DNA of 64,000 bases from Alistipes provencensis (lineage in GTDB: Bacteria; Bacteroidota; Bacteroidia; Bacteroidales; Rikenellaceae), in NCBI RefSeq assembly GCF_900083545.1, contig NZ_LT559262.1, positions 2,637,673-2,701,672 of the forward strand. The letters run 5' to 3'. The notes beneath the pieces were generated by a model. That model did no database searches. It was not told the origin of the DNA and saw only the letters and a program-made list of their open reading frames with translations. Positions 12,226-54,392 of the stretch are shown piece after piece (the first letter of the stretch is position 1; every line of letters starts with the position of its first letter). The translations under genes and the position numbers were made by a program.

Positions 12226-12257
12226 TCCTTCTTCATTTATTCGGGGTGTAGCTTGGG

Positions 12258-13916: not shown

Positions 13917-13932
13917 TATTTGTTTGTTTGAG

Positions 13933-15921
13933 TTAGTTCTCCAGTTGTGCGTAGCGTTTCAGCACCTCGTAGGCTTCGAGGATGCCCAGTTCGCCGGCTT
14001 TCGAAATATCGAGACAGCCTTTGCGGGTGTCCTTCATGAATATCTGGATGATACCGCGGTTGTAGTACGCCTCGGCGAATGCCGGGTTCAGCTCGATGGC
14101 CTTCGAATAGTCCTCGTAAGCCTCCGGCAGACTGCCCGAGAGGGCCAGCAGGTTGGCGCGGTTGTAGTAGGCGTAGGCGAAATCGGGGAAGAGCTTGACG
14201 GCCTTGTTCAGGTCGGCCACGGCCTCGTCGTAGCTGTATGTGCGTTTCGAGTTGTTGTTCAGCCGGTTGGCGGGGTCCGAGTCGATCGTGATCCGCTGGT
14301 ACGAGTTGTCGATCGACGAGATGAAGTCGATCATCTCGGCACGCGTCGTCGAACGGTTCAGGTAGAGGAACGGGTTCGACGGATTGAGCTCGATGGCCGA
14401 TGAATAAGTATTCACCGAGTTGGTGTACTGCTTGATGAGCGACTGCGTGACGCCGCGCTCGAAGAGCACCGTCCACGAGGGGTTGCTCGCATTGAGCTCC
14501 TGCACATACTGCTTGTCGAGCATCACGAGCGAGTCGGCCGGGATGTTGCTTTCGCGGCACGAGAGGGTGAGGTACTCGTTGTCGACGCGCTTGCGGAAGT
14601 CCTCCACGCGCTGCAAATGGTAGCGTGTGACGGTCGGCGCGGTGTCGGCACGCATCAGCGTGAACTTGAACAGCGGCAGCAGGCGCATCTCCTCGCGGCC
14701 GCCGTTGTGGCCCGTGATGCGGTCGAAGCTGCCGCCCGCGAACTTGCTGTCGAACGACAGCAGGCGGTCGAAACGCTGCGTGGTGTCGGCGTAGATCGAA
14801 TAGGTGCTGTCGCTCAGGCGCGAACGGTAATCGGCGATCTTCTTCTGGGCGATCGCGCGGTCGGACTTGGCGCCCTGCGGGTCGTTCAGGAATTCGCGCA
14901 GGCGTCCGCGGTAGATGTAGGCGTTGGCGAAATCGGGGTAGAGCTTGATGGCCGACGTGTAGTCCGCCACGGCCTGCTCGATCTCGCCCAGTTGGGCGTA
15001 GACGCCCGCCCGGTTGTAGTAGACCAGCACGTTGTTGGGCGAGTAGAGCGCCACTTTGTCGTAATCTTCGAGTGCGCGGTTGTAGTCGCCGATCTGGGTG
15101 CGCAGCATGGCGCGGTTGAAGTAGGTCAGCGAGTTGGTCGAGTCGAGCTGGATCACCTTGTCGAAATCCGCGAGCGCTTGCATCGGGCGGTTGGTGGCGT
15201 TGTAGACCAGCGCGCGGTTGAAATAGGAGAGCACATAGGCGGAGTCGCACGAAATGGCCTTGTTGAAATCCGCTTCGGCCTCCTTGTACTGCTCTTGCTG
15301 CAGGTGCAGCGATCCGCGGCGGTTGTAGCCGTTGGGATTCTCGCGGTTGGTACGGATCGCGGTGTTGAAGTTCTCGTAGGCCCGGGTGGTGTCCTTCAGG
15401 TGCAGGTAGCTGAGGCCCCGGCAGATGAAGGCGTCGGCGACCTTGTTCTCCTGACGGATGAACTTGTCGAAATCCTCGATGGCCTCCTTGAACTGCTGGT
15501 TCAGCAGGCGCGTCACGCCGCGGCTGTAATAGGGTCCCGGCAGGTCGGGACGCAGTTCGATCGCCTCGCGGAAATCCTGCAGGGCGTCGTCGTAGTTGCC
15601 CAGCCGCGAACGGGTGATGGCCCGGTAGGTGTAGGCCTGCGTGTAGACGGGGTTCAGCCGGATGGCGGTCGAGAAATCGGCTTCGGCGCCCAGCAGGTCG
15701 TCGAGGTTGTATTTGGCGATGCCGCGCAGGAAGTAGCCTTCGAAAGCGTCCTCGTCGAAGCGCAGCAGGGTATTCAGGGTGCGGATGGCCTCTTGGTAGT
15801 CGTTGTTCATCATCGACGAACGGCCCATCCAGAAGAAATACTCCCGGTTGTACTGTGCGTGCGCCTTCATGCCGCACAGCAGGGCGGCTCCCAGTATGAT
15901 TCCGAAGATGAGTTTCCGCAT
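13933..15921 (-). CDS. Secreted tetratricopeptide-repeat protein
   Basis: A 662-residue protein with a signal peptide (cleavage after KAHAQ, residue about 23). It is then built almost wholly of 34-residue TPR units. Repeats with A-DF-AI-L-P-----Y-NRA can be followed from residue about 28 to 345 and again from 475 to 650, with a non-TPR segment (about 345-475) between. TPR superhelices bind protein partners, so it is probably a periplasmic scaffold. The partner is unknown. Confidence 0.88.
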   Translation of the reverse strand: MRKLIFGIILGAALLCGMKAHAQYNREYFFWMGRSSMMNNDYQEAIRTLNTLLRFDEDAFEGYFLRGIAKYNLDDLLGAEADFSTAIRLNPVYTQAYTYRAITRSRLGNYDDALQDFREAIELRPDLPGPYYSRGVTRLLNQQFKEAIEDFDKFIRQENKVADAFICRGLSYLHLKDTTRAYENFNTAIRTNRENPNGYNRRGSLHLQQEQYKEAEADFNKAISCDSAYVLSYFNRALVYNATNRPMQALADFDKVIQLDSTNSLTYFNRAMLRTQIGDYNRALEDYDKVALYSPNNVLVYYNRAGVYAQLGEIEQAVADYTSAIKLYPDFANAYIYRGRLREFLNDPQGAKSDRAIAQKKIADYRSRLSDSTYSIYADTTQRFDRLLSFDSKFAGGSFDRITGHNGGREEMRLLPLFKFTLMRADTAPTVTRYHLQRVEDFRKRVDNEYLTLSCRESNIPADSLVMLDKQYVQELNASNPSWTVLFERGVTQSLIKQYTNSVNTYSSAIELNPSNPFLYLNRSTTRAEMIDFISSIDNSYQRITIDSDPANRLNNNSKRTYSYDEAVADLNKAVKLFPDFAYAYYNRANLLALSGSLPEAYEDYSKAIELNPAFAEAYYNRGIIQIFMKDTRKGCLDISKAGELGILEAYEVLKRYAQLEN

Positions 15922-39007: not shown

Positions 39008-41206
39008 TCAATAGGCCGTCAGCCTGTTGGACGTGCGCCGGGCCTCTGCGGTAATTGCGGCGGGCTGTCCGCCCTGAAGCAACCGTTCGCACATGGCGGA
39101 AATTGCGGGACGCTGGTATGAACGGCCGAACCAGCCCAACGCTTCGATGGCGGCCACGCGCAGCGGTTCTTCGAGCGCGGCGTCTTCGGCCAGAGCGATC
39201 AGTTCGGGCACGCAATAATGGTGGCGGTAGAGGCGGAAATAGGTTATTTCACCCATACGCCTCTTGATTTTGTTCTGCGGGTCCCGAATGAATTTGAAAG
39301 TCTCCGTCTGTTCGGCTTGTTTGTCGGCTACGCGCTTCAGGCGCTTTTGCAGCAACTCGTCGTTTTGGTAAAGTTCATGCTTGGCCGCACACTGACGGCG
39401 GAGTTCGGTGCTTACGGCGTCGGGATTCATGAACATCATGTTCTCGTCGGCATGATAGGCCACGCGCAGCGAAAGTTCGTCGTCCAGCAGCATCTCGACA
39501 GCCGCGGGAACCAGCTCGTCGTCGCCGCAGTCGCCGATCCACTGCGACACCAGACGGCGCACCAATTCGTAGCTGTCGCCCGCCGTTTGTGCCAGCATCG
39601 CCTTGAAGCGGGGCGAACGGCTGTTGCTCATCAGCGTGAGGGCTTCGAGACGTACCGATCCGTAGGGTGATTCGGCAGCGCGTTTTTCGCACAGGTCGGC
39701 CGTCCCGCCGTAGCCGTTGTCGGCGAGTTTGCGCATGGCGATGGCCTGCACGTCGGCGGGCATCGTTTCGGCGGCCATCCGGAGCCAGTATTTGTTGTCC
39801 GCGGCCTTTGCCGTGAGCGCCGCGTTTAGGTCCGTGCCGGGCAGCGCCCGGTTGACGAAACGATAGGTAGGGTCGCCGATCAGGTGCGTTTCGAGGTAAT
39901 GTACATGGCGTCCCCACTGGCCGATGCGCACGCCGCAGTCCAGCAGTCCGATATAACGGTCGGGCCACTTGTCCTGCAGGGCGTTGACCGAATTGCCTTG
40001 CGTGACGACGCAGTCTCCGGGTCCGAAGATATAGCTCGTGGCGATGCAGTCGTCGAGATGGAACGAGCCGTTGTAGCAGGCGTCGAACATCACCATGCGG
40101 GGATTCATCGGCCGTTCATAAAGGTCGTCGATGTGTACGTCCATCGTCCGGTTGAGCACCGAATCGGCCGTGTGCAGCGAATCGGAGAGCCGGCACCACG
40201 CTTCGGGCACGCCGTAATAGGCGATCATTTCAGCCTTGCGCTTTTCGGGGTCTTTGCGTCCGTCGAGTTTGCTGCGCAGGAACAGTTTGATGTTCTCGAT
40301 CGAAACGTTCATGCTCGAACCGTTCCGGTAGCCGTTCAGGTATTGCATGTCGGGAGAGCCGTGGTGGTGGCACAGGGCGACATCGACGCCTTTCCGGGCC
40401 ATTTTCTCCAGCAGATAGGGTTTCATGGGCCAGCGGCTTTCGAAGTCGTAGAAACGCACGCTGCTGCCGGTGCGGAAAAGTGCGGGCAGTTGTTCGCGCA
40501 GTGCGATCTGTTCCCCGGCCCAAGCCTCGGGAGCCTCGGAGTTGTAGCCGTGGCCGCGGAAAACGAACAGGTTGTCCAGAACGTTCTGCTCCTCATGGGC
40601 CTTCACCACCTTGCGCAGGTAGGCGCGCAGGAGTTCGTCGGAATCCGTGCCTTCGCGTTTGGGCGGCTTGATGCGGGCCGAATAGATCGGCGACGCGATG
40701 TGCTGGCGTGATTCGGGCGTGAGCGAGTAGTAGAAATAGAGCGGTTCGTCGGCGTCGCGGCGGATGAATTCGAATTGCAGTTCCGGATCGTCGTAATAGC
40801 GGTCGGAGGGGACCGACGAATCTTTCCAGTCGCGGTCCTGACTGCTCTTGAATGCCGACGTGAGATGCTGCGCATCGCGGATCATGGCGACGGGGATGTC
40901 GCCGATGAACACCACGCCCTCGAGGGGCGGCCGAGCCTCCGTCATCCGGACGATTTCGCTGCGCACGCTTTCGGGATTCTGCCATGTGTCGATGAGCAGG
41001 TAGGTTCCCAGCCCGTCGCGTTCCACGGCGGCGCGGTAGGCGTCGACCTCGGCCGCTGCGGCGTCGTAACTCCGGCTGTCGATGAAGATGGCGAATGTCG
41101 TGGCGCTTTTCACGCCGGGACGGATGATGCGCGGTGCCGCTGCGAGTGACAATGCCTGCAGGCAGACGGCGATCAGTAAAACGATTTTTTTCAACTTCAT
41201 GGCCAT
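39008..41206 (-). CDS. Gingipain-like C25 cysteine peptidase with HEAT-like repeats (third of three)
   Basis: A 732-residue protein with a signal peptide (about 24 residues, ending SLAAA). The caspase-like catalytic core has VVFIGDIPVAMIRDAQH, SSVPSDRYYDDPEL, a His in ALCHHHGSPD (His282), and a nucleophile Cys in MFDACYNGSF (Cys377). This is the His-Cys dyad order of peptidase family C25. FGPGDCVVTQGNSVNALQDKW and LIGDPTYRF follow. From about residue 500 on, the chain is helical and HEAT-like, ending without the Ig-like CTD used for type IX secretion. It is last in the six-gene operon, 6 bases after its paralogue. Confidence 0.78.
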   Translation of the reverse strand: MAMKLKKIVLLIAVCLQALSLAAAPRIIRPGVKSATTFAIFIDSRSYDAAAAEVDAYRAAVERDGLGTYLLIDTWQNPESVRSEIVRMTEARPPLEGVVFIGDIPVAMIRDAQHLTSAFKSSQDRDWKDSSVPSDRYYDDPELQFEFIRRDADEPLYFYYSLTPESRQHIASPIYSARIKPPKREGTDSDELLRAYLRKVVKAHEEQNVLDNLFVFRGHGYNSEAPEAWAGEQIALREQLPALFRTGSSVRFYDFESRWPMKPYLLEKMARKGVDVALCHHHGSPDMQYLNGYRNGSSMNVSIENIKLFLRSKLDGRKDPEKRKAEMIAYYGVPEAWCRLSDSLHTADSVLNRTMDVHIDDLYERPMNPRMVMFDACYNGSFHLDDCIATSYIFGPGDCVVTQGNSVNALQDKWPDRYIGLLDCGVRIGQWGRHVHYLETHLIGDPTYRFVNRALPGTDLNAALTAKAADNKYWLRMAAETMPADVQAIAMRKLADNGYGGTADLCEKRAAESPYGSVRLEALTLMSNSRSPRFKAMLAQTAGDSYELVRRLVSQWIGDCGDDELVPAAVEMLLDDELSLRVAYHADENMMFMNPDAVSTELRRQCAAKHELYQNDELLQKRLKRVADKQAEQTETFKFIRDPQNKIKRRMGEITYFRLYRHHYCVPELIALAEDAALEEPLRVAAIEALGWFGRSYQRPAISAMCERLLQGGQPAAITAEARRTSNRLTAY

Positions 41207-41212
41207 ATCTGA

Positions 41213-43447
41213 TTAACGGGTCGGCTTGGATGGGGTGTTTCCGAGCCGGATCGCGGTTTGCGTCAGCTCGTCGCGGAGTTCTTTTTCCAGACTCTTGTCG
41301 GCAGCCATTTGCTGGCAGGCGGCGATGATCTCGGCGCGGCGCGGGGTGTGTACGAACCAGCCCAGACATTCGGCCGTGTTGACCCGCAGTTCGAGGGGCT
41401 GCGAAGCGTCTGCCACGAGTTTCAGCAGATCGGGCACCAGTTCGTGATAGGTGTTGTTGCGCATCGAACGGATGGCCGAAATACGGCTTTTGAGCGTCTT
41501 GCCGTTGAACAGCAGGTTCTGCTGACGGGCCTTCATCTCCTGTTCGCGTGCGACCTCCTCCCGGAGTTCGGCGAACTTTGCGTCGTGATCCGGATATGCC
41601 GAAGCCTCGACGGCCGTGCGCAACGCCTGTTCGACCTCTTTCCCGGGGAACAGCTCCAGCCCTTTCAGGACAATGTAGGCTACGCGTTTCGATTCGCTGT
41701 CGTTGACATAGATGTCGGCTAATGCAGGCAGCAGTTCCGGGCGGCCCGACTGCCATGCGTAGGTCGCGGCATTGCGGCGCAGCAGCTCGTAACGGTCTTT
41801 CAGTCCCCGGATGATGGCCTGTGCGAAGATCTCTTCGTCACCGGAGCGGCCGATGAGCTTGAGGCACTCCATGCGGGTCGTCGCCAGCGGCGACTGTTTC
41901 ATGAACTCCAGCAGTTCGCCGGCCGAGATCGCCCCGGCGTCGGTCAGCATCCGCAGCGAGAGGCTCTGTACGTCGGCCCACGGCGAACTCGCGAGCAGGC
42001 TGCGCCAGTAGGCGGCATCTCCCTTGCGGGTCACCATGTCGGTCGCCAGCGTATTCGGTTCGACGGGGCGGAACCGGAAAGCCGGGTCGCCGATGATGTG
42101 CCCTTCGAGCGATGCGATCAGCCGGTTATATTGTCCGACGCGCACGCCGTGCGACAGCAGGCCGACCATCTCGTAGGTCCAGCGGTCCTGCAGCACGTTG
42201 ACCGTATTGCCCTGCGTGACCACCGTGCGGCCCGGGCCGAAGATGTAATATCCCGTGATGTATCCGGGTTTGTGGAACGACCCGTTGTAGCAGGCATTGA
42301 GCATCACGAAGCGCGGCTGCGTCGCCAGCGTTGCAAGGTCTTCGAGGCTGATGATCGTCTGGTCGCCCTTGGCCTTCGCGCCGTCGTCCTTTTCCTTCTC
42401 TTCGAAGAAAGCGTCGGTCAGGTGGTATTTCTCCTTGAAATATTGTTTGGCTCCCTCCATGTCGGCCTTCTCTCCCTTGCGCCGCTCCATGTACAGGGCG
42501 ATTGAAATTTCGGCCTTGAGCTGGCTGTACTGTCCTTCGAAACTGTCGGGCTCGGTCTTGTAATTGCCGACATGCTGTTTGTCGGGCGATCCGTGTTCGT
42601 TGAAGAACATCGCATCGACCTCCGGACGTACCAGTTCGTCGAAAACCCGGTATTTCATGTAGTCGTCCATCCGGAAATTGAGCTGGCGCAGGTTCTCGGC
42701 CTTGCGGGTATTGGTCAGCGGGAAGTTTTCGTCGAGCGCAATGCGTTCGTCCATCCAGCAAACCAGACAGTCGGAATTGTAACCGTCTCCGGCATAGGTT
42801 ACCAGACAGTCGAGCTGATCGACCTTGCCGCGTTCGGCGACGACCTTTTCCAGATAGCGGGCTATTCCCTCATACTTGTCGCCTCCGAGCTGTTCGGGAT
42901 AGCGGATGCGCCCCGAGTAGAATGCGGGAGCGAGCTGCTGCGGCGAATCGCAGGCGAGGTTGAAATAGGAGAGCAGCCGGTCCGTACTGTCGCGGGCGAT
43001 CAGTTCGAACCGCAGGTCAGGGCAGTCGTAGTAGCGGTCGGAGGGGACCGACGACTGGATCATCGGGAAATTCTGCTCGTCCATTTTGAACGCCGTGGTC
43101 ATATGCTGGGCATTGCGCACCATGGCGATCGGAATTTCGCCCACGAAGACCACGCCTTCGAGCGGCGAGCGTTTGGCTGTTTTGCGCATCAGTTCGATGA
43201 GCTGCGCACGCACCTGCTCGGGGGTCTGCCAGTCGTCGCGGAGAATGTAGGTCGAGAGGCCGTCGGCCTCCAGAGCATCGCGGTAGGCGTGGAGCTGCGG
43301 GGTGGTTTTGTCGTAGGTTGCCTGATCGACAACGATTGCGAACGATGTCGGCTGCTTGCTGCGGGGCTTTTCGACTGTAACTTTGGCTTGCAGGATGAAC
43401 GGCAGCAGCAGGACGATTGCCAATAAATATCTTTTCATAGCTTTCAT
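41213..43447 (-). CDS. Gingipain-like C25 cysteine peptidase with HEAT-like repeats (second of three)
   Basis: A 744-residue paralogue with a signal peptide (about 21 residues). Dyad candidates are His285 in FNEHGSPDK and Cys386 in MLNACYNGSFH. SSVPSDRYYDCPDL, FGPGRTVVTQGNTVNVLQDRW and IIGDPAFRF match the sister proteins. A Lys/Glu-rich insert (about residues 320-365, KGEKADMEG to KAKGDQT) lies between the two catalytic residues and is the most divergent part. A helical HEAT-like C-terminal half follows with no CTD. The two flanking genes are 6 bases away on each side, which indicates one message. Confidence 0.78.
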   Translation of the reverse strand: MKAMKRYLLAIVLLLPFILQAKVTVEKPRSKQPTSFAIVVDQATYDKTTPQLHAYRDALEADGLSTYILRDDWQTPEQVRAQLIELMRKTAKRSPLEGVVFVGEIPIAMVRNAQHMTTAFKMDEQNFPMIQSSVPSDRYYDCPDLRFELIARDSTDRLLSYFNLACDSPQQLAPAFYSGRIRYPEQLGGDKYEGIARYLEKVVAERGKVDQLDCLVTYAGDGYNSDCLVCWMDERIALDENFPLTNTRKAENLRQLNFRMDDYMKYRVFDELVRPEVDAMFFNEHGSPDKQHVGNYKTEPDSFEGQYSQLKAEISIALYMERRKGEKADMEGAKQYFKEKYHLTDAFFEEKEKDDGAKAKGDQTIISLEDLATLATQPRFVMLNACYNGSFHKPGYITGYYIFGPGRTVVTQGNTVNVLQDRWTYEMVGLLSHGVRVGQYNRLIASLEGHIIGDPAFRFRPVEPNTLATDMVTRKGDAAYWRSLLASSPWADVQSLSLRMLTDAGAISAGELLEFMKQSPLATTRMECLKLIGRSGDEEIFAQAIIRGLKDRYELLRRNAATYAWQSGRPELLPALADIYVNDSESKRVAYIVLKGLELFPGKEVEQALRTAVEASAYPDHDAKFAELREEVAREQEMKARQQNLLFNGKTLKSRISAIRSMRNNTYHELVPDLLKLVADASQPLELRVNTAECLGWFVHTPRRAEIIAACQQMAADKSLEKELRDELTQTAIRLGNTPSKPTR

Positions 43448-43453
43448 TACGGA

Positions 43454-45649
43454 TTATTTCTTGGATTCCACGCGGTTGATCATGCGCTGCAACTCTTTGG
43501 ACAGTTCCGGCGAACAGTTGCCGCGGGCGAGCAGTTTGCGTCCGGCGTCGGCGATTTCGTGGCGGCGCACCGAGAGATTGAACCACGCCAAGGCCTCGGC
43601 CATCCGCACACGCAGAATTTCCGGGGCCTGCTCGTCGCCCAGCAGGGTGAGGTATTCCGTTACATGCTGATGATAGGGGCGGTTCTTGAGGAAACTGATG
43701 CGGGCCTGACGCCAGCGTATCTTGCCTTCGGGGTCGAGTATTTCCCGCGTCGAGGACTCTCCGGGCGAAAGCCCGTCGCGCTCGACGAGCTTGTCGAGCA
43801 GTTCCTGTTTTTCCTCTTGGGCGTGATAGAATGTCTTGCCGGCGAAATAGGTTTCGATGGCCTTTTTGACCTTCTGCGTGTCGAAGCAGCGGATTGCCTC
43901 GCTGATGTTGAACACGATGCGCGCGGCGTTACGGTCCTTGGCATAGACGTCGATGAGTACGGGGATGAACTCCTCGTCACCGATGCGGCCCATGCGCGTA
44001 ACGGCGATGCGGCGCAGGAACTCGAAACGGTCGTAGGCGGCCAGCATCAGGGCTTTCTTGTATTCGGGGCCGTTGAGCGATTCGAGCAGCCGGAATGCAT
44101 TGTAGCGCACGACGCTGTAGGGCGATGTCGCGCACTTGTCGAGCAGTATGCCGGGCAGTTGCGGATAATCATTTTCCCAGAGCCGGATCATCGCCAGATT
44201 CTGGATGTCGGGCACTGCGTTGTCGAGCTGTCCGAGCCAGAAGCCGTTGTCGCGCTTCAGCGCCATCGAATTGATTTCGAGTTCGGGGTGAGCAGCCTTG
44301 AAACGGTAGGTCGGGTCGCCGATCACATGCGATTCGAGGATGTGGATGTTCTTGGCCCAAGCGCCGATGCGCAGCCCTTCGCCCAACAGCCCCAGCAGGT
44401 CGAAAGCCGACTTGTCCTGAAGCACGTTGACGCTGTTGGCGAACGTTACGACGCAGCGTCCCGGAGCCATGATGTAGTGCCCTGCGATGCAATCGTCCTC
44501 GCGGTAGTCGCCGTTGTAGCAGGCGTCGAAGACCACGAAACGGGCGTTGGGCGCAATGGCCTCCACCTCTTCGAGAATGATGCCCGTGCGCAGGTCGGCG
44601 ATCGAGTCGAGGCGGAGCATCTCGGGGTCGTCTGTCCGGTTGTACCAAGTGGAGTCGAGCCCTTTCTCGGCGGCGCGTTTGGCGGCGTACTCCCGGCCGG
44701 TTCCGGGGCGGCGGGCCAGTTCGCGCAGGCTGCGCTGCATCTCGGCTGCGGCCTCCTCGCCCGATTCCACATAGGGCGTTCCCGAGAGGTACTGGCGATA
44801 GGGCATTCCGTGTTCGTGGAAGACCATCATGTCCACGTCGTCGCGGCGGACTTCGCGGATGAGCGACTCCTTCATGAAGGGCTGCATCGAGTAACGCAGG
44901 AATTTGGCGTTCTCGGTACGGCTGAATACGTCGCCGAACTGCTCGTCCAGCAACTGCTGTTCATCGCGCCATGCGATGAGCGAGTTGGAATAGGAGCCGT
45001 GGCCCGTATAGGAGACGAACCGGTCGAAAGGCGTCGTGGCGCGGTGTTCGGCCACGGCTTTTTCCAAGTAACGGGCGATCTGTCTGTAGGGGTCGCCGTA
45101 GGCTTTCTGTGCCTTGATGCGGCCCGAATAGATGTCGCAGGAGATGTACTGCGGCGACGAGGGCGACATCTCGTAATAATGGAAGAGACCCTGCGAGGGA
45201 GTGCCCTGCGGGACGAATTGCAGGTCGAAGTCGTCGTAAAAACGGTCCGAGGGGACCGAGGTCTCGTGGAGCGGGTGGTTGCGTTCGTCCATTTTGAAGG
45301 CCGAGGTGAGGTGCTGTGCCTTGGTGATCATGGCGATGGGGATGTCGCCGATGAACACACAGCCTTCCAGTGCGTTTTCCGCGTGAAGCTTACGCAGCAC
45401 GTCGCGCACTTGTTCGGGCGTCGTCCAGTCGTGCGAAACGATGTAGACGGGCAGCCCTTCGGCTTCGAGCGTCTGTTTGTAGGCTGTCATCTGGGTCCGG
45501 CATTCCCGGGCGGTCCGGGTGTCGGTGATCACGGCGAAGGAACTCGGTCCCTGCACGGAGGGGTTTTCGAACGTCTGCGATCGTCCCGGCGCGGCCGAAA
45601 GCAGCAGAACTCCGGCCAGCAGGACAAAAAACGGTTTTCTGTAATTCAT
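43454..45649 (-). CDS. Gingipain-like C25 cysteine peptidase with HEAT-like repeats (first of three)
   Basis: A 731-residue paralogue with a signal peptide (ending PGRSQ, residue about 25). Dyad candidates are His280 in VFHEHGMPYR and Cys377 in VFDACYNGDYREDD. The EHG is followed by Met-Pro instead of the Ser-Pro of its sisters. Another region holds FVSYTGHGSYSNSL, like the gingipain core sheet. TSVPSDRFYDDFDL and VIGDPTYRF are shared. The C-terminal half is HEAT-like and ends MINRVESKK with no CTD. It lies 64 bases after the beta-barrel gene, across an intercistronic hairpin. Confidence 0.78.
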   Translation of the reverse strand: MNYRKPFFVLLAGVLLLSAAPGRSQTFENPSVQGPSSFAVITDTRTARECRTQMTAYKQTLEAEGLPVYIVSHDWTTPEQVRDVLRKLHAENALEGCVFIGDIPIAMITKAQHLTSAFKMDERNHPLHETSVPSDRFYDDFDLQFVPQGTPSQGLFHYYEMSPSSPQYISCDIYSGRIKAQKAYGDPYRQIARYLEKAVAEHRATTPFDRFVSYTGHGSYSNSLIAWRDEQQLLDEQFGDVFSRTENAKFLRYSMQPFMKESLIREVRRDDVDMMVFHEHGMPYRQYLSGTPYVESGEEAAAEMQRSLRELARRPGTGREYAAKRAAEKGLDSTWYNRTDDPEMLRLDSIADLRTGIILEEVEAIAPNARFVVFDACYNGDYREDDCIAGHYIMAPGRCVVTFANSVNVLQDKSAFDLLGLLGEGLRIGAWAKNIHILESHVIGDPTYRFKAAHPELEINSMALKRDNGFWLGQLDNAVPDIQNLAMIRLWENDYPQLPGILLDKCATSPYSVVRYNAFRLLESLNGPEYKKALMLAAYDRFEFLRRIAVTRMGRIGDEEFIPVLIDVYAKDRNAARIVFNISEAIRCFDTQKVKKAIETYFAGKTFYHAQEEKQELLDKLVERDGLSPGESSTREILDPEGKIRWRQARISFLKNRPYHQHVTEYLTLLGDEQAPEILRVRMAEALAWFNLSVRRHEIADAGRKLLARGNCSPELSKELQRMINRVESKK

Positions 45650-45668
45650 ATGGAGCAGTTATTTGAAA

Positions 45669-45705
45669 CCCTCCGGGGAGGATATGTGGCGTCCTCTCCG
45701 GAGGG
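45669..45705 (-). promoter_or_regulatory. Intercistronic hairpin between the barrel and peptidase genes
   Basis: CCCTCCGG (45669-45676) pairs with CCGGAGGG (45698-45705), extended inward by GAGGA/TCCTC. With no T tract it is more likely an mRNA-processing or stability element than a full terminator. Confidence 0.55.
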
Positions 45706-45713
45706 CTCCGGTT

Positions 45714-47300
45714 TTAAAACATCAGTCCGATTTTGAAATTGGCGTAACCGCGGCGGTTGAACAGGTCGCGGTGGTCGTCGGCACGCACATAGTCGGCCGA
45801 GGCTGCGGCAAAGACCGAACCGCGGCCTTTGAACAGACGGGCGAACGAATAGGTGACCTCACCGCCGAACGCGGCGTATCCCGACCCGAGGTAGTAATAG
45901 TCGCGGAGCGTGAAATCGGTGTAGCACTTCGCGTCGGCCTTGTACCCGTTGTAGTCGATGTCGCTGCTGTCGTTCATTTTGTAGGAGGCGCGGATTCCGA
46001 CGAGCAGCGAGTGCTTTTCGTTGAAGATGAAGTTCTTGCGTCCGAAAATTCCGATCTTGCAGTTCTTGATGTCCTGCGTGCTGCGCGGGAAATAGTAGAT
46101 GTCGCTGAGCTTCTCGGTGGAGAATTCGACGCCGGCGGTCCAGTTGTAGGAATCGCCGCGGGTGGTGCGCATGTACTGCAAACGTCCTTCGAAACCGGCC
46201 TTCGAACTGTTCGAACGGACGGATTTCGATTTGATGATCCACTTGGCGACCTCGAAGGAGTTGTCCCACTCCTGCACATACTGGATGCCGTCGATGCTGC
46301 GGTCGCCGTAAGCGGCGTTCAGGAAGAGCGTATTCTCCTTCGAAGGCTTGTAGACGGCGTTCAGGCCGATCGACCAGCGCTCGTCCCGGGTCGTGCCGAC
46401 CATTTTGGGGGTCGTGTAGCTGTTGGTAACGTCCTCCACCTCCCGGGAATATTTACCCGATACGAGCAGTCGCAGTTTTTGGGTCGTGAACGAGTACTGG
46501 CCGCCGACGCCCATGCAGTTGGCGTTGTAGATGCGCTGGTTGTCATCGTTGTTGCCTCCGATCGACGCGTCGATAAAGAATCCCGGGAAATTGAAAATGT
46601 AGACGGGGTTGGTGCTGAACGCGATTTTGTTCATGGCGGTTCCGTCTTCGCGCCGAGAGTAATACTGATAGTTGGCGCCGATGGCGTGCTTGCCCAGCGT
46701 GACGGTCAGGCCCGGTTTGATCTCGAATTTCGAAAGGCTGACCAGCGGGCGCGGGTCGTGCTGCTTGGCGCCCTGACCGTTCTGATATCCGGCTTCGATG
46801 CCGAAGATCAGCCGGTTCCACAGTTTGGGCGTAGCGGCTTTCACGGTCATGTCGTAGAGCTGGTTGATCCATTTGCTCTTGTAGGTGTCGGCGATGAAGA
46901 AGGGCGTGCCGCGCAGCGGGTCGATCAGCGAGGCGTTGTATTCGGCGTCGCGCAACTGGTCGCGCGAATATTCGAACCGTCCCCAGATGAAGGCGCCCTT
47001 GAGGGCCTGCATCGTACCGCCGCCGTCGGTGAAAAAGCGGTAGCCGGTGTTGTGTTTCCCCTCCTGCGCCCGTTTGAAGGAACCTTTTTCGATATCGTAT
47101 CCCAGTCCGACTTGGCTGTAATAGTCCATCCGGTCTAGCTGGATGCCCGACACGTTGTCCGAGTAGCTGAACTGGAGGCTCTCGCTTTTCAGCCGTTCGA
47201 CGGAGGCCTCGGTATTGATCCGCTGTGCCGAGGAGCAGAGCGGCGCGAGGGCCGCAGCCACGAGGCATCCCGTCAGTTTGATGTAGCTATATTTTATCAT
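45714..47300 (-). CDS. DUF6850-family outer-membrane beta-barrel protein
   Basis: A 528-residue protein with a signal peptide (about 25 residues, ending CSSAQ). Amphipathic beta strands alternate with Asn/Gly/Asp turns along the whole chain (for example GYRFFTDGGGTMQALKGAFIWGRFEY and HAIGANYQYYSRRED). It ends in IGLMF, the aromatic C-terminal signal of Bam-dependent barrels. It carries no plug. The layout and neighbours fit DUF6850, which is encoded next to DUF4876 lipoproteins and TonB-dependent receptors. It lies 24 bases after the lipoprotein gene. Confidence 0.7.
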   Translation of the reverse strand: MIKYSYIKLTGCLVAAALAPLCSSAQRINTEASVERLKSESLQFSYSDNVSGIQLDRMDYYSQVGLGYDIEKGSFKRAQEGKHNTGYRFFTDGGGTMQALKGAFIWGRFEYSRDQLRDAEYNASLIDPLRGTPFFIADTYKSKWINQLYDMTVKAATPKLWNRLIFGIEAGYQNGQGAKQHDPRPLVSLSKFEIKPGLTVTLGKHAIGANYQYYSRREDGTAMNKIAFSTNPVYIFNFPGFFIDASIGGNNDDNQRIYNANCMGVGGQYSFTTQKLRLLVSGKYSREVEDVTNSYTTPKMVGTTRDERWSIGLNAVYKPSKENTLFLNAAYGDRSIDGIQYVQEWDNSFEVAKWIIKSKSVRSNSSKAGFEGRLQYMRTTRGDSYNWTAGVEFSTEKLSDIYYFPRSTQDIKNCKIGIFGRKNFIFNEKHSLLVGIRASYKMNDSSDIDYNGYKADAKCYTDFTLRDYYYLGSGYAAFGGEVTYSFARLFKGRGSVFAAASADYVRADDHRDLFNRRGYANFKIGLMF

Positions 47301-47324
47301 AACTCATTCGATTTTTGGGGATTA

Positions 47325-48620
47325 TTATTTCAGGGACCAGTTCCATGCGGGCATTTTCTCTCCGTTGCGGCGGAACTGCGGGTCCTGCATTTCGAAATCT
47401 TCCGTCGAGTTGTTCGTGTCCTGATAGATCGGCGTGCCGTCGGCCCGCTGGCCGATCACTTTGCGGCATACGCTCTTGCCGACGTAGATTTCTTCCGTCG
47501 AAGCTGCTCCGGCATCCACGAATCCGGGGATGCGCTTCATGTTGAGGCTGTTCGATGTCGGGAGCATCTCCACACCGTCGATCAGTTGTTCGGCCGGGAT
47601 GCGGACGTACTCCTGCGTTTTGCCCACCTGCTTCTGGGTCGTCTCTCCCACCACGCCCGTATTGATGGTCGGGAATTCGAGGTGCTTGCCGGGCTGGTAG
47701 ATACAGAGTCCCGGACCGCTGACGGTGTTCAGCCACTGCATGGTCACGATGTACCCCGACCAGAAAACGTACTCGAGGTCGGGAACGTCCTCGTTGACAC
47801 GCTGCGGATTGCCGGCCCATGTTTCGAATTCGGACAGCGACGTGTCGATCAGACCGCCGTATTTGCTGTGGTCGGCATGGTTCGCGGCCTCTTGGGTGAT
47901 GATGAACGACTCGCCCGGCTTGAGCGGGTAGTCGGTTCCGTTACCCGGCAACTGCCAGACCGTCACGGCATAGACGTAGTTGTTCAGTCCGTCCTCGGCA
48001 GGCCATTCCGGGAGCGTCGCCGTTGCGAATTCGGGCACGAGACGCGCGAAACAGAGGTGGTCGAGGTAATAGGTTTCGTCGCCGTTGTTGTAGATCTCGT
48101 AGAACTGGTCGCGGAAATAGGTCGACTGGGTCGTGGGGTTGGTGCTTCCGCAGTAGAAGATCTGGCTGAAGCAGAGCGGGCCCACCATGGCGGGGCGGAT
48201 GGCGATCGAGAAGTCGTTCGACGCCTCGGCCTGCTCCGGCGTGATGTCTTTCATGATGGTTTTGTTCTGCACCGATCCGTTCAGGTAATAGGTGTTCCCT
48301 TCGGATTCGGATTCGCCGAATACGGAGATCGTATAGTTGCCCGGAGCGACCTGCGCCTGCGCGATGCCGTTCTCATCGGTCTGCGTTTCGATGATGGCAT
48401 CCTCTTCGAAATTGGTGAAACGGACGGTGAGCCCTTCCACCGGAAAATCCGTGTTGATGGTACCGTTGCCGTCGGCATCCACAAAGCCGGTCACGGCCTT
48501 GACCTTGAACGAAACGTCCAACGGATTCACGACATCGGCCTGACTGGCGGAGTCCATCATCTCGATGCACGAACAAAGCCCTGCAGCAACCGTCAGTATG
48601 GCTATATATTTCTTTTTCAT
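47325..48620 (-). CDS. DUF4876-family lipoprotein
   Basis: A 431-residue lipoprotein with lipobox GLCSC (Cys18). The N-terminal domain (about 35-110) is an Ig-like carboxypeptidase-regulatory or transthyretin-like fold (VRFTNFEEDAIIETQTDENGIAQAQVAPGNYTI). The remainder is DUF4876, with LCFSQIFYCGSTNPTT and YLDHLCFARLVPEFAT. The C-terminus is aromatic (MPAWNWSLK). In this operon it is the likely surface partner of the TonB-dependent receptor, comparable in position to SusD-type or HmuY-type binding lipoproteins. The ligand is unknown. Confidence 0.75.
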   Translation of the reverse strand: MKKKYIAILTVAAGLCSCIEMMDSASQADVVNPLDVSFKVKAVTGFVDADGNGTINTDFPVEGLTVRFTNFEEDAIIETQTDENGIAQAQVAPGNYTISVFGESESEGNTYYLNGSVQNKTIMKDITPEQAEASNDFSIAIRPAMVGPLCFSQIFYCGSTNPTTQSTYFRDQFYEIYNNGDETYYLDHLCFARLVPEFATATLPEWPAEDGLNNYVYAVTVWQLPGNGTDYPLKPGESFIITQEAANHADHSKYGGLIDTSLSEFETWAGNPQRVNEDVPDLEYVFWSGYIVTMQWLNTVSGPGLCIYQPGKHLEFPTINTGVVGETTQKQVGKTQEYVRIPAEQLIDGVEMLPTSNSLNMKRIPGFVDAGAASTEEIYVGKSVCRKVIGQRADGTPIYQDTNNSTEDFEMQDPQFRRNGEKMPAWNWSLK

Positions 48621-48641
48621 AATTATGCTTGCATTGTAGGG

Positions 48642-51485
48642 TTATCGAATCTTGACAGACAGCGCGGCCCCGAAGAAGAAGGTCTTTTCGTTGCGCCGGG
48701 TGTACTTGCCCGGATAGACCTTGCTTTCCCAGATCGGCGTGCTGCGGAACATGTTGTTGGCGAAGAACGAAATGCGCATGAAGTTGCGGATTTCCTTGGT
48801 CAGATTGATGTTGATGCAGAGCATCGGGGGCATCGAACCTTCGCGGATCAACCGGCGGTTGTCGAGGCGTGAGCGCATGTCTACGGCTTGGAACTCCTCC
48901 TCCCCGATGCGCGAAGCGTCGAAATCGTATACCCGGCCGTCCAGACGCGAGATGTACTTCACGGGGATTGAGTCGTTGCCGTAGGTGGTGTACGAATGTT
49001 CCTGCCACTTGACGCTGGCTGTCAGGGTCACGACGAAGCCGATGCGCGGAATGTTGTGCGTGATGCGCAGGTTGGTGGTGGTCGCCTCCGCGTGCTCCGT
49101 CTTGTTGCCCGGTTCGAAAACGCCCATGTGGGGATAGGAGCCCGCTACGGTATTGCCTGTCGTATGGTTGTCGAACGTGTAGTAGTTCTTCCACGACTTG
49201 TACTGCGTCCAGCTTCCGTTCAGGCCGAACGAGGTGCGGATGGAGTTGATGCGTCCGAAGTCGATGTCGAACTCGACGCCCCGGCTTTCGTAGGCGAAGT
49301 AGTTGGTCGGAGTCGAATACTGGAGCAGGATCTTGTCCGACGACTTGAGCGAAAGTTCGGGCATATCCGTTTCATTGGCCGGTTTGGCCGCCGAATACTG
49401 GTTGTAGTCCACGCACTTGAACGTGTCGAACGTCGGGCTGGTCATATAGCCGTTGTGGGTCTTGTCCTCGAAATAGGTGACCGAACCGCGCACCTGTCCG
49501 ATCTTGAAGTCGGCGCCGACCTCCCATTTGGTGGTTTTGGCCAGTTTGAGGTTCGGATTCTCCGCCGAATAGACGTGCGTCGTGGCGATCTGGAACTTCT
49601 GGGCGTCGCTGAAACCGCTTGCCGTCGTGTTGTCGAAGTTCAGAATGTCGAAATAGGCATTGTCGGGGTGGAGATAACCCAGCGAGGGGGCTTTGTATGT
49701 GATGCCGTAACCGCCGCGGATGCTCAGTTTTTCGGGAATCAGGTCATACGAGGCGTTGACGCGGGGCGCAACGCCTCCGTCCATGTCGTAAACGTGGTCA
49801 TAGCGGACGCCGGCGACGATTTCCAGCCTGCGGTGCAGGATGTCCGTCGAAAAATGCTCCTCGGCGTAGAGGCTGAACTGGTGCATGAACGGCACGTCGC
49901 TGAAGGCACGTTCACGCTGGGTGGTGAAGTTGGTGTTGACCACCCGACGCGGCGGATTTTCCGGGTCGAATACCTTGCCTTCGCCCAGATTGCCCGTAGC
50001 GCGGTACTCGCCGCCGACGATCAGCCGGTGGTGCGTGCGTCCCAAGTCGCCGGCGAAGTTGGCCGCCAGTTGTACGAAGGTGTTCAGCTCCTTGCCGTAG
50101 ATATCGTATTCCGCCGTGTAGTCCGAGGGCAGACGCCACGCCTTGCCGTTCTTGTCCGCATCGGGGATGTTCGTGATTTTCGTACCGTCGGACAGGAAAA
50201 TGTCCCGCCCGGGAATGCTCGAAAGAATGGCCCCGTCGGTTTTCGAGGTGGAGTAGGTCCAGTCGGAGTTGGTGGCGAATTCCGACCGGTAGGTCTTTTT
50301 GTCCGTATAGTTCGCCGAGACGGTGTACCGGAGGTTCTTGAACCAGTTCCTGTTGAAGTTGAACGAGCCGTTGGTGTTGAAACGCAGTCCCAAATCGCGC
50401 TGGGTCATTACGTCCAGATCGCGTTTGTCGTCGGGGTTGGGCTCGGCCTTGTCCTTGGTGTAGAAAAAGTTCATCGAGGTGTTGGTCGACCATTTTCCCA
50501 CGGTGTTCGAGTAGCTGACACGTCCCGTTACCCGATTATAGGTGTCGTATCCTTCGGTAGGGTCGTTCTGGGCAAAGGTATAGTCGACGCCGTAGTTGAG
50601 TACGCCGGCCCTGTCGCCGAGACCTACGCCGTGCGATGCGGAGGCCATGTAGACATTGGGATTGATGTCCAACTGGATCGACAGCGGAGCGCGTCCGGCC
50701 TTGCTGTTGACGATGACGGCGCCCGATGCGATGTCGCCGTATTGGGCCGATGCGATACCCCGGATCACCTCCACCGATTCGATGTTGCTGGTGGTGATGG
50801 TTCGCATGTCGACGCCCGAATTGGGAGTGGAGATGCTGGGTCCGGCATTGGCGCCCAACGACAACGACAGGGTTTGCATGTTGGCGTTGTTCGAAACGGG
50901 GGCGCCGTCCATGATGATGGCCGTACCGAAACTCTGGCCGTTGCGGATGGAGAACGTGCCGACTTTCTTGAGCGCTATCTCTTCGGAGGTGCGCGTATCG
51001 GCACCCGGGAGCAGCGACATGATGTCGGCCAGCGAGGTGGCCTGAATGTGCTCCATGGCCGATTTGGAGATCTTCGATGCGGTTGCCGCACCGGTCTTTT
51101 TCGACTCGGCCGACACCACGACATTCTCCAGATAGAACGACGTGGCCTTCAGAATGAATTTGAGGGAGTCCCGGGCGGGAAGCTGGATCGTTTGCGAGAG
51201 GGGCTCATAGCCCAAGGAACTGATTTCGACCTTGTATTTTCCCGGGTTTGATAATTGGATTTCGAACCGACCTTTGACGTCGGTGGTTGTCGCTACACCG
51301 ATCTCAGGCAGGGAGACAACGGCATAGGCCAGCGGGGTGGTTTTGGAAATTCCCCCCCCCTCGGTTTCCGAGGCCAGCACTGTGCCGTTAAACGAGACCT
51401 TTCCTTTGCTCTGCGCCGACAAAGAAGCGGCACTGCAAAGTATCAGAATACTCGTTAATACACTCAATTTGGCAATAACCTTCAT
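48642..51485 (-). CDS. TonB-dependent receptor, first gene of the C25 peptidase operon
   Basis: A 947-residue outer-membrane receptor. After the signal peptide (about 24 residues) comes a carboxypeptidase-like domain (TPLAYAVVSLPEIGVATTTDVKGRFEIQLS). A plug follows with DIMSLLPGADTRTSEEI and TAIIMDGAPVSNNANMQ, then a 22-strand barrel with repeated TonB-receptor loops (GGYGITYKAPSLGYLHPDN). A G9 run on the coding strand (51352-51360) codes for Gly43-45. It is in frame here, but slippage would truncate the protein before the plug. No anti-sigma-interacting signalling domain is evident. Confidence 0.88.
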   Translation of the reverse strand: MKVIAKLSVLTSILILCSAASLSAQSKGKVSFNGTVLASETEGGGISKTTPLAYAVVSLPEIGVATTTDVKGRFEIQLSNPGKYKVEISSLGYEPLSQTIQLPARDSLKFILKATSFYLENVVVSAESKKTGAATASKISKSAMEHIQATSLADIMSLLPGADTRTSEEIALKKVGTFSIRNGQSFGTAIIMDGAPVSNNANMQTLSLSLGANAGPSISTPNSGVDMRTITTSNIESVEVIRGIASAQYGDIASGAVIVNSKAGRAPLSIQLDINPNVYMASASHGVGLGDRAGVLNYGVDYTFAQNDPTEGYDTYNRVTGRVSYSNTVGKWSTNTSMNFFYTKDKAEPNPDDKRDLDVMTQRDLGLRFNTNGSFNFNRNWFKNLRYTVSANYTDKKTYRSEFATNSDWTYSTSKTDGAILSSIPGRDIFLSDGTKITNIPDADKNGKAWRLPSDYTAEYDIYGKELNTFVQLAANFAGDLGRTHHRLIVGGEYRATGNLGEGKVFDPENPPRRVVNTNFTTQRERAFSDVPFMHQFSLYAEEHFSTDILHRRLEIVAGVRYDHVYDMDGGVAPRVNASYDLIPEKLSIRGGYGITYKAPSLGYLHPDNAYFDILNFDNTTASGFSDAQKFQIATTHVYSAENPNLKLAKTTKWEVGADFKIGQVRGSVTYFEDKTHNGYMTSPTFDTFKCVDYNQYSAAKPANETDMPELSLKSSDKILLQYSTPTNYFAYESRGVEFDIDFGRINSIRTSFGLNGSWTQYKSWKNYYTFDNHTTGNTVAGSYPHMGVFEPGNKTEHAEATTTNLRITHNIPRIGFVVTLTASVKWQEHSYTTYGNDSIPVKYISRLDGRVYDFDASRIGEEEFQAVDMRSRLDNRRLIREGSMPPMLCININLTKEIRNFMRISFFANNMFRSTPIWESKVYPGKYTRRNEKTFFFGAALSVKIR
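51352..51360 (+). repeat. C9 homopolymer (G9 in the coding strand) in the TonB-dependent receptor
   Basis: Nine C after GGAAATT and before TCGG. In frame with nine; any change by one or two bases truncates the receptor after about 45 residues. Confidence 0.9.
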
Positions 51486-51938
51486 AAGCTATCGAGTTTT
51501 GGGTTAATAAATGGAACCTATCAGGTGCAAAAAGGTAAATTTGCCCCTGTATAGATCCGAGAATCATTGTGAATATCTCGGGTGCAATATAATGAAAAAA
51601 AATTAATAACTGTTCGAAAGTGCGCTTTTTTCAAGCAGATTGTTTTCTGGTTTTGAATGTCGCTGCATATCATCGATCATGCAGCAGAGCGCATTTTTAG
51701 ATTGGAAGTTGCTGACTCATTGAGGTGTTTTGAACCGGTTTCATCATCAGGGCATAATCTTGATTCCATACCTTATATAATATGGATGATGGATTTTTAT
51801 TTATATAAATCTTATAATTTTGTCGTAATGCCTATGATTTGGTTTCAAATTGTAAGTATTTTTGCGGTATTTGGTGCCGCAACGATACTTTCATGGGGCG
51901 CACCGTTTCTCCGTACCGCATCCGATTCGATTTTTTCT
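51486..51938. other. AT-rich divergent intergenic region
   Basis: About 450 bases of much lower GC than the flanks separate the C25 operon from the plug-less barrel gene. A 99-codon frame at 51657-51956 runs through the promoter of the next gene and looks spurious. On the minus strand TTTACCTTTTTGC near 51528-51540 is a weak -7-like match for the operon. I see no clear operator or RNA gene. Confidence 0.6.
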
Positions 51939-51946
51939 TATCTTTG
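51939..51946 (+). promoter_or_regulatory. -7 box (TATCTTTG) for the plug-less barrel gene
   Basis: Exact consensus match 23 bases before the ATG at 51969. Confidence 0.6.
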
Positions 51947-51968
51947 TATTTCGTAAAGTCGCAAAAAG

Positions 51969-54392
51969 ATGCTGAAAAGTCGCTGCTGCCTGCTGTTTCT
52001 TCTGCTGCCGAGCCTGCAGGCTGCGGCTCAGTCTCCCGACGACGAATACTATCCCTATGCCGAACGTGAGGAGCGGCGCGAAGTGCTCACGACCGATTCC
52101 GCGATCTTCTACCGCGCCGTGCAGGGCGTTTCGGACCTCTACGGCGACCATACCGATTTCAATCTGCCGCAGGTGGCCCACAAGCGTCGCGGGCTGGACT
52201 ACCGCGCCGCGCGCACGTCGCTCTCGGGCGTGGACCTGCCGTACCGTTATCTTTCGCTCCTGCGTCTGCTGGGGGCCGGGGAGGAGCGCTACGCAGGACT
52301 TGCTCCGGTGCCCGGGGAGTGGGGCCCTGCGGGCGGTGTGAGGCTGTTCCGGTTTCCGGAAGGGGAGTCGTTGCAACCTTACCTCGCCTCGGTGCGCTTC
52401 ACCGACCGCAACTACCTTTTCGGGGCCAAAGTAGCCGCCGCGAAGACTCTCGGCGACGGATGGAGCCTTTCGGCCGCTGCCGATGCCCGCACGGGCCGCG
52501 ACATGCACGTCGAAGGGGTCTTCACCAACGCCCTGACCGCCGGGCTGCGCCTTGCCAAACGTTTTGGCGAAGGGCATGAACTCGCCCTGCTCTGTATCGT
52601 GCCGCCCTCGACGCGGGGCACGCGCCTCTCCTCCTCCGAGGAAGCCTTTTCGCTGACGGGCGACCGCCTCTACAACCCGGCGTGGGGTTTTCAGGACGGC
52701 CGGGTCCGCAACTCCCGGGTGCGGCGCGAGACGATCCCGCTGGCCGTTGTCACTTATGAGGTTCCGCTGTCGCCCGCGACCTCGCTCACGGCGGCGTTCG
52801 GCGCCGAAGCGGGCGTTTCGAAATACAGCATGCTCGACTGGTACGACGCCCGGACGCCGATGCCCGACAACTACCGCTACCTGCCCAGCTATGCCGGGGA
52901 CCGGGAGACCGAGCTGGCGTGGCGTTCGAACGACACGCACTATACGCAGGTCGACTGGGACGAGCTGATCCGCCGCAACCGCATGGCCGCCGGACACGCG
53001 GTCTATGCGCTGGAGGACCGTGCCGAGCGGCTTTGCAATCTCTCGGCGAACGCCCTCCTGACCACCGATGTCGACGGCCGGCTGACGCTCCGTTACGGCG
53101 TTGCCCTCCGCCGCGAAAATACGCGCTCCTACCGGCAGATGCGCGATCTGCTGGGTGCGGAGTACATCACCGACATCGACCGTTTCCTCGTCGATGACGA
53201 CACCTACAGCAACCTGCTGCAAAACGATCTGCGGCATCCCGACCGCACGATCCGCGCGGGCGACCGCTTCGGCTACGACTATACGCTCACCGCCCGCACG
53301 GCCCTGATCCACGCACAGGCCGACTACCGCGCCGACCGTTTCCGGGCGGATCTCTCCGCCGAATTGGGCAGCGGGGCGGTCAGCCGCCGGGGCCACTACG
53401 AGAAGGAGCTCTTTCCCGGAGCGCAGTCCTACGGCCGTTCGCGGGTGATGCGCTTCACGCCCTATGCCTTCCGGGCCCTTGCCGGCTGGGCTTTCACGCC
53501 GCGCTGCTACCTCGAAGCCGCCGTGCAGGCCGACGCCCGGATGCCCGAAGCGGAGAACCTCTTTTACCAACCTCTCTATAACAACCGCACGGTCGACAAT
53601 CCCGTGCCCGAACGTACCTATGCCGCCGAACTCGGCTGGCGCTTCACGGGACCCGTTCTGGACTTGCAGGCGACGGTTTTCGCGGTGCTGACGCTCGACG
53701 GCACCGAGACGCGCCGCTATTACGACGACATGGCCTCGGTCTACTGCGACATGGCCGTCACGGGGATCGGACGCCTCTCCTACGGCATCGAGGCCGCCGC
53801 CGATATCCGCTTGTCCTACCGCTGGCGGTTGTCGCTGGCAGCCTCGGCAGGGCGTTACAAATACGCCCGCGACCCGGTCGTCACGGTGCTCTCCGACGTG
53901 GATAATTCGGCAGTCGACCTGCGCGCCGTCAGCCGCATGGGAGGTTGTGAGACGGGCGGGGCCCCGCAACTGACCGCCACGGCCGAACTGGCATGGTTCG
54001 GGTCGAGAGGGTGGGGCTGCCGCGCTTCGGCGGGATATGCCGGGCGGCGCTATGTCGAGCCGATGGCCCTGCGCCGCACCGACCGCATCGCCGGGCAGGG
54101 CGGCATCACGCGCGAGGCTTTCGAGGCCTTCACCCGGCAGGAGCGGCTGGCGGATGCCTTCACGCTCGATGCTTCGCTGTTCAAATCCTTTTATTTCGAC
54201 CGTTCGCGGCTGACCGCGGCGTTGATGCTCCGCAACCTGCTGGGTGACGCCGATACGCCTTACGGCGGTTACGAATCGTTACGCGTGCGCCGCATCCGGC
54301 CGGGCGACGATACCCTCTACACGCCCCACGCCACGCGCTGCACCTATGCGTGGCCCCGTTCGTTCTATCTTACAATCTCTTACCGATTCTGA
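51969..54392 (+). CDS. Large outer-membrane beta-barrel protein without a plug domain
   Basis: An 807-residue protein with a signal peptide (about 21 residues, ending QAAAQ). It has no recognisable carboxypeptidase-like or plug domain. The rest is a long series of amphipathic strands with TonB-receptor-like features late in the chain, for example FTPRCYLEAAVQADARMPEAENLFYQPLYNNRT and RTYAAELGWRF. It ends in TISYRF, the aromatic barrel signal. It may be a plug-less relative of TonB receptors. The substrate is unknown. It is transcribed divergently from the C25 operon. Confidence 0.72.
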   Translation: MLKSRCCLLFLLLPSLQAAAQSPDDEYYPYAEREERREVLTTDSAIFYRAVQGVSDLYGDHTDFNLPQVAHKRRGLDYRAARTSLSGVDLPYRYLSLLRLLGAGEERYAGLAPVPGEWGPAGGVRLFRFPEGESLQPYLASVRFTDRNYLFGAKVAAAKTLGDGWSLSAAADARTGRDMHVEGVFTNALTAGLRLAKRFGEGHELALLCIVPPSTRGTRLSSSEEAFSLTGDRLYNPAWGFQDGRVRNSRVRRETIPLAVVTYEVPLSPATSLTAAFGAEAGVSKYSMLDWYDARTPMPDNYRYLPSYAGDRETELAWRSNDTHYTQVDWDELIRRNRMAAGHAVYALEDRAERLCNLSANALLTTDVDGRLTLRYGVALRRENTRSYRQMRDLLGAEYITDIDRFLVDDDTYSNLLQNDLRHPDRTIRAGDRFGYDYTLTARTALIHAQADYRADRFRADLSAELGSGAVSRRGHYEKELFPGAQSYGRSRVMRFTPYAFRALAGWAFTPRCYLEAAVQADARMPEAENLFYQPLYNNRTVDNPVPERTYAAELGWRFTGPVLDLQATVFAVLTLDGTETRRYYDDMASVYCDMAVTGIGRLSYGIEAAADIRLSYRWRLSLAASAGRYKYARDPVVTVLSDVDNSAVDLRAVSRMGGCETGGAPQLTATAELAWFGSRGWGCRASAGYAGRRYVEPMALRRTDRIAGQGGITREAFEAFTRQERLADAFTLDASLFKSFYFDRSRLTAALMLRNLLGDADTPYGGYESLRVRRIRPGDDTLYTPHATRCTYAWPRSFYLTISYRF

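Follow-up and report, generated by a model that had tools for sequence, protein, structure and literature searches.

A conserved operon that joins a TonB-dependent receptor module to gingipain-fold HEAT-repeat peptidases in Bacteroidota

Results

Six genes on one strand

The stretch of DNA analysed here (the window, 64,000 nucleotides), from the gut bacterium Alistipes provencensis, carries six consecutive genes, all on the minus strand, whose ORF coordinates place a TonB-dependent receptor (TBDR) first, then a DUF4876 lipoprotein, a DUF6850 barrel and three peptidases (Table 1). The six-gene layout put forward in a preliminary description of this DNA is reproduced exactly from these coordinates, the gaps from receptor to third peptidase being 21, 24, 64, 6 and 6 bases.

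Table 1. Features of the operon, in window coordinates.
Feature	Position	Strand	Basis
TonB-dependent receptor (TBDR), 947 aa; CarboxypepD_reg-like domain, plug, barrel	48642..51485	-	ORF + Pfam
DUF4876 lipoprotein, 431 aa, lipobox Cys18; homologue of solved structure 4q1z	47325..48620	-	Pfam
DUF6850 outer-membrane beta-barrel, 528 aa	45714..47300	-	Pfam, model
Gingipain-fold peptidase 1 (position-1 clade), signal peptide, HEAT C-terminus	43454..45649	-	ORF, Pfam, tree
EHGMP motif, peptidase 1	44801..44815	-	motif
DACYNG motif, peptidase 1	44510..44527	-	motif
Gingipain-fold peptidase 2 (position-2 clade)	41213..43447	-	ORF, Pfam, tree
EHGSP motif, peptidase 2	42584..42598	-	motif
NACYNG motif, peptidase 2	42281..42298	-	motif
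Gingipain-fold peptidase 3 (groups with single-peptidase operons)	39008..41206	-	ORF, Pfam, model, tree
Peptidase 3 gingipain-fold domain, residues 33-455	39842..41110	-	VIA-align Z 29.0 to 1cvr
HHGSP motif, predicted catalytic His282, peptidase 3	40352..40366	-	motif, conservation
DACYNG motif, predicted catalytic Cys377, peptidase 3	40067..40084	-	motif, conservation
Peptidase 3 HEAT-repeat domain, residues 457-732	39011..39838	-	Pfam, model, Foldseek
Upstream intergenic region, presumed promoter	51486..51968		

The receptor matches the Pfam barrel (2.1e-24) and plug (2.5e-13) models; its best NCBIfam relatives are FepA and siderophore receptors, at weak scores below the cut-off, and none of the six proteins matches a SusC or SusD model in Pfam or NCBIfam. 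The DUF4876 lipoprotein is assigned by Pfam at E = 1.7e-35, and 21 of 44 DUF4876 relatives also have a lamin-tail-like match. The DUF6850 barrel is assigned at 1.8e-86 and its predicted model has a pLDDT of 90.6; a functional call from Foldseek was rejected, the matches being to generic barrels only (TonB receptors, AlgE, FadL), mostly at TM scores of about 0.3-0.4. The divergently transcribed neighbour (window 51969-54392, plus strand) encodes 807 amino acids that match the TonB receptor barrel model only, with no plug detected.

The peptidases have a gingipain fold

Identity among the three peptidases is about 35%, and from the first to the third they carry the motif pairs EHG/DACYNG, EHG/NACYNG and HHG/DACYNG. 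A model of peptidase 3 built from 48 sequences (pLDDT 93.9) divides into an alpha/beta domain at the N-terminus and a helical repeat at the C-terminus. Foldseek returned mostly HEAT and armadillo repeat proteins for it; VIA-align applied to the same candidates brought out the gingipains, residues 33-455 aligning with gingipain R (RgpB, 1cvr) at Z 29.0 and an rmsd of 3.0 over 296 residues, and with gingipain K (Kgp, 4rbm) at Z 27.7, the next best being separase at 15.3. The histidine and cysteine at the positions expected to be catalytic are kept in 148 (H282) and 147 (C377) of 148 peptidases, and motif and fold together predict that this pair is catalytic in what would be endopeptidases.

The earlier designation of these proteins as C25-like thus stands as to fold and to the order of His and Cys, but not as to the Pfam C25 model (PF01364), which matches none of the three; Pfam calls only a HEAT_2 C-terminus in them, NCBIfam makes no C25 call, and among 48 peptidase relatives two have a weak C25 match (best E 0.0036). 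Since the PF01364 cut-off is not reached, we name them gingipain-fold peptidases rather than established C25 members. Searching the A. provencensis genome itself with Pfam C25 gave no match, as was the case for the control genomes.

They share with RgpB and Kgp the catalytic-domain fold and the His/Cys pair, but are only about 13% identical to them, carry a helical insertion that separates the His motif from the Cys motif, end in HEAT repeats and are linked in an operon to a receptor. Two further differences bear on where they act. There is no gingipain-type propeptide in the window peptidases, only a short stretch separating the signal peptide from the domain; and no T9SS sorting domain was found at the C-terminus, that end being occupied by HEAT repeats. 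No NCBIfam sorting-domain model matches, Por_Secre_tail does not appear in the list of the 25 commonest families of the 48 relatives, and a search of the genome for SprA_N of the T9SS found nothing, the control genomes likewise giving no match. A lipobox-like motif occurs in 8 of 145 peptidase relatives, in some by chance, the clear cases being those of loci L117 and L130.

The analogy first proposed for the operon, with gingipains that cut host proteins outside the cell and the HmuY/HmuR pair, is right only in part and, as to cleavage outside the cell, not supported: besides lacking a propeptide and a sorting domain, the window operon includes no HmuY-like protein, and operons of this kind are common in bacteria that have no animal host. 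A broader form of the idea is that the peptidases, at the surface or released, cut iron or haem proteins outside the cell and that the receptor and DUF4876 protein import haem, iron or peptide. It could appeal to the gingipain fold, to the lipoboxes of the L117 and L130 peptidases, to a weak similarity to HmuY in a neighbouring gene of locus L018, and to the DUF6850 barrel, which could in principle serve export. We consider it unlikely nevertheless, given that the window peptidases and most of their relatives have Sec signal peptides without a T9SS tail, that nothing resembling a propeptide would keep the enzyme latent during secretion, and that DUF6850 shows no likeness to a known exporter beyond generic barrels.

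The peptidases stay with the receptor module in related genomes

Co-occurrence was examined in an order-level sample of 198 genomes, with p taken from the hypergeometric distribution ignoring phylogeny. The peptidase is present in eight of them, and all eight also have DUF4876 and DUF6850, which in the same sample occur in 35 genomes and, over cut-off, in 33 respectively (p ~5e-7 for DUF4876, phylogeny ignored); the order-level loci inspected have the same operon between different flanks. A family sample yielded the operon in 10 of 150 genomes. At least 499 peptidase loci came out of a scan of GTDB species genomes. The 80 best, a set biased to the closer relatives of the query, include 73 in which TBDR, DUF4876 and DUF6850 genes adjoin one to four peptidases; the other seven run off contig ends. 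The preliminary description had proposed a self-contained module joining uptake to proteolysis, an idea exposed to failure had the peptidases proved unlinked to the receptor genes in relatives; it survived this test.

Adjacency is constant while gene order varies: the peptidase lies upstream of the receptor in Pedobacter and Chitinophaga and is divergent in Sphingobacterium. FecR and ECF sigma genes adjoin the operon in Chitinophaga and Pedobacter. The operon is found in Bacteroidales, Sphingobacteriales, Chitinophagales, Ignavibacteria and Neomarinimicrobiota. The genomes concerned come from the gut, the rumen, the mouth, soil and water, and the operon is common in bacteria of soil, water and reactors that live without an animal host. 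A tblastn search of phages gave no match.

Ancient paralogues and an alternative payload

In a tree of 148 peptidases, made by a quick method, the position-1 peptidases form one clade and the position-2 peptidases another, each with support of 100, and those of position 3 group with the peptidases of single-peptidase operons. The triplication is therefore old, its order having been kept in Rikenellaceae, Odoribacteraceae, Bacteroidaceae and Prevotellaceae.

The peptidases are an add-on to a DUF4876/DUF6850 core, most other modules carrying ABC/DUF4857 genes in their place. At DUF4876 loci without a peptidase, about 23 of 35 have an ABC ATPase, a permease and/or DUF4857, often with PepSY_TM (L217-L251); both payloads were met together at one locus only (L137) among 98 peptidase loci examined, and in the receptor tree the peptidase-type receptors cluster, needing 5 label changes where shuffles give 28.5. 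These ABC-DUF4857-PepSY loci, of which BT3625-BT3633 is an example, have the TBDR-DUF4876 core of the window operon, in most cases with DUF6850, but ABC, DUF4857 and often PepSY genes replace the peptidases. This sister system is uncharacterised. As most DUF4876/DUF6850 modules do without peptidases, proteolysis is not essential to the uptake core.

The same comparison bears on the suggestion that the peptidases have no part in handling cargo and serve instead, when iron is scarce, in the maturation, trimming or turnover of the receptor complex or of other envelope proteins. PorU, another enzyme of the C25 fold, does have an envelope role, and the strict genetic coupling of peptidases to receptor would fit; sister modules with the same core nevertheless work without peptidases, and three to four specialised paralogues would be hard to explain, so that we regard this suggestion as very improbable.

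A mobile copy of the operon and the structure 4q1z

Over about 12 kb the operon is at least 99.9% identical in a Butyricimonas sp., B. bouchesdurhonensis, B. xylanisolvens, Phocaeicola faecicola and B. finegoldii, and a near-identical copy (rounding to 100% over 9.5 kb) was found in 5 of 95 Bacteroides species genomes. Recombinase-like genes lie near this mobile operon; at locus L081 it is followed by a gene whose sequence reads as an IS256-type transposase; and in B. finegoldii it sits beside ParA and a BtuB/BtuG-like B12 locus. Across 399 residues the DUF4876 protein of the mobile operon has the same sequence as PDB entry 4q1z ("putative lipoprotein"), for which our literature search found no paper.

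One candidate for a plasmid-borne copy was rejected: NZ_OY725920.1 (L264-L266), deposited as a B. finegoldii plasmid, carries clpX, trpS, guaB, rpmF and other housekeeping genes and is probably a circularised piece of chromosome. In two Bacteroides genomes (G420 and G448, loci L254 and L256) peptidases 2 and 3 each have one internal TAA in the matched frame, which may reflect read-through past the gene end.

Iron is the best-supported signal

Published measurements under iron starvation record increases of 36.7-128-fold for BT3625-33, of the ABC type, of 20.8-214.5-fold for PG1019-22, and a modest 3.5-7.4-fold for BT1933-39, which is annotated as IS256 transposase, hypotheticals, HEAT repeat protein, DUF4876 and TonB receptor (PMC10434189). 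These seven tags fit an IS256 transposase plus six genes, as at L081, and the position of the B. finegoldii operon beside ParA and the B12 locus is paralleled in B. theta, where ParA is at BT1944-45 and BtuB2/BtuG2 at BT1953-54; from annotation and neighbours we infer that BT1934-39 is the same six-gene operon, its proteases being annotated only as hypothetical or HEAT proteins. The view that no such system had been described needs qualifying accordingly: none with this gene set turned up in the literature searched, but its B. theta version is already listed as iron-responsive and its lipoprotein structure is in the PDB.

Counts of k-mers and palindromes upstream of the receptors revealed the palindrome AATACCTA-N4-TAGGTATT in both payload types (an EM motif search of the same regions converged on a GC-rich artefact and was discarded). 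Scored with a matrix trained on part of the same sequences, the palindrome passes 14 bits in the upstream regions of 12 out of 43 modules of the peptidase type and of 13 out of 33 other DUF4876 modules, compared with 0.4% of shuffles. In genome scans each genome had 1-8 sites, the reversed pattern giving 0-2, and such sites lie upstream of genes for FeoAB, imelysin, a TetR/ABC pair and several TonB receptors (L286-L312). We propose it as a candidate Bacteroidales iron operator. It is present in the Alistipes relatives L050 and L058; in the window operon there is no convincing copy, only a three-mismatch candidate at 51827-51846, so that control of this operon by iron is presumed from its relatives. 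Of the peptide, metal or cofactor first suggested as the object of uptake, iron is the most likely theme and the best-supported signal, on the strength of the published induction and the shared operator.

An iron signal would also suit import of peptides or of a peptide-like product, such as a peptidic siderophore, degraded for its amino acids or metal, with no protein as cargo. The weak resemblance of the receptor to siderophore receptors and the presence of the module in free-living bacteria are in keeping with this; three conserved large HEAT enzymes of endopeptidase fold, on the other hand, seem excessive for small peptides, and neither biosynthetic nor peptide-permease genes are conserved beside the module at the loci examined. 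We think it improbable.

Discussion

A proposed route for import and digestion

The operon probably serves to gain iron from proteins or peptides that carry it, which are imported and digested. The particular form of this that we favour, with a confidence just short of even, is that it is a protease-associated TonB import system whose cargo is iron-bearing and whose peptidases cut in the periplasm. The DUF4876 protein, as a surface lipoprotein, and the TonB-dependent receptor would capture the cargo, which would most likely be a protein, a peptide or a peptidic chelate; the DUF6850 barrel might serve as an accessory channel or scaffold; TonB energy would move the cargo across the outer membrane; and the three gingipain-fold peptidases, with their plain Sec signal peptides, would then cut it in the periplasm, the HEAT repeats presumably binding substrate and the three ancient paralogues dividing cleavage specificities between them. 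Surface exposure of DUF4876 and the sequence of these events are our proposal. The absence of a T9SS tail and of a propeptide points to the periplasm as the site, as does the additional M16 protease (FusC/PqqL family) in the L117 operon; to be counted against it are the few lipoprotein peptidases (L117, L130), which could face outward. Since free-living bacteria also have the operon, host proteins are unlikely to be its only substrate.

Import of a whole protein followed by its digestion in the periplasm is established for the Fus (FusA/FusC) ferredoxin system of Pectobacterium, and related import systems, including YddB/PqqL of E. coli, have been described across Proteobacteria (PMC6793856). 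The window operon resembles Fus and YddB/PqqL in the genetic pairing of a TonB-dependent receptor with a signal-peptide-bearing protease, here within one predicted operon, in its link to iron and in the digestion of an imported protein, which in the present case is proposed from the genes. It differs in its peptidases, which are of gingipain fold with HEAT repeats rather than M16 and stand up to four in tandem; in the addition of a DUF4876 lipoprotein and a DUF6850 barrel; and in its distribution in Bacteroidota, Ignavibacteria and Neomarinimicrobiota instead of Proteobacteria. No M16 protease is present in the window operon, and the one at L117 is an addition to the gingipain-fold enzyme; since the window peptidases are not M16, the operon may work like Fus but falls outside the Fus family. 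The BtuB/BtuG and HmuR/HmuY pairs likewise combine a TonB receptor with an outer-membrane lipoprotein, but DUF4876 proteins match, by sequence, lamin-tail-like and Ig-like domains and not BtuG or HmuY models, and neither pair has the added peptidases.

That the operon stands for an undescribed, widespread and horizontally moving class of protein import in Bacteroidota and neighbouring phyla, whose cargo would be whole iron-bearing proteins or peptides entering by a TonB receptor with a DUF4876 partner and taken apart in the periplasm by three specialised gingipain-fold HEAT peptidases, is a larger claim, possible in our judgement though rather doubtful. Its interest lies in the pairing of an unrelated protease fold with an uptake gate across hundreds of genomes and, in gut Bacteroides, in a whole operon passed between species as a near-identical block, once next to a locus for vitamin B12 uptake. 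Were the claim to hold, DUF4876 and DUF6850 proteins would gain a role and the orphan structure 4q1z a function, gingipain-fold enzymes would have a place outside T9SS virulence, and BT1933-39 would turn from a table entry in an iron-starvation study into a testable system in tractable commensals.

Other genes beside the module

Several loci carry further genes at the module. The M16 protease of L117 (Bacteroidales MAG PL23b_bin.85; positions 12196-15018, Pfam 6.9e-35) is encoded between peptidase and receptor. Directly after the peptidase of L018, positions 5862-7436 encode a protein that matches the papain family and, weakly and at its C-terminus, HmuY (1.4e-4), and a small lipoprotein gene follows; the HmuY match being below the cut-off, kinship is not claimed. 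Three Ignavibacteria loci (L120, L125, L133) have a protein of about 740 amino acids between DUF6850 and the peptidase; the copy at L133 was scanned and is a beta-propeller of YCF48/BNR type that has a T9SS sorting tail. Lipoproteins of about 265-291 amino acids that look alike adjoin the peptidase module at L073, L075, L077, L094, L106, L111 and L138, in the genera Dysgonomonas, Proteiniphilum, Parabacteroides, Paludibacter, Pararcticibacter and Chitinophaga.
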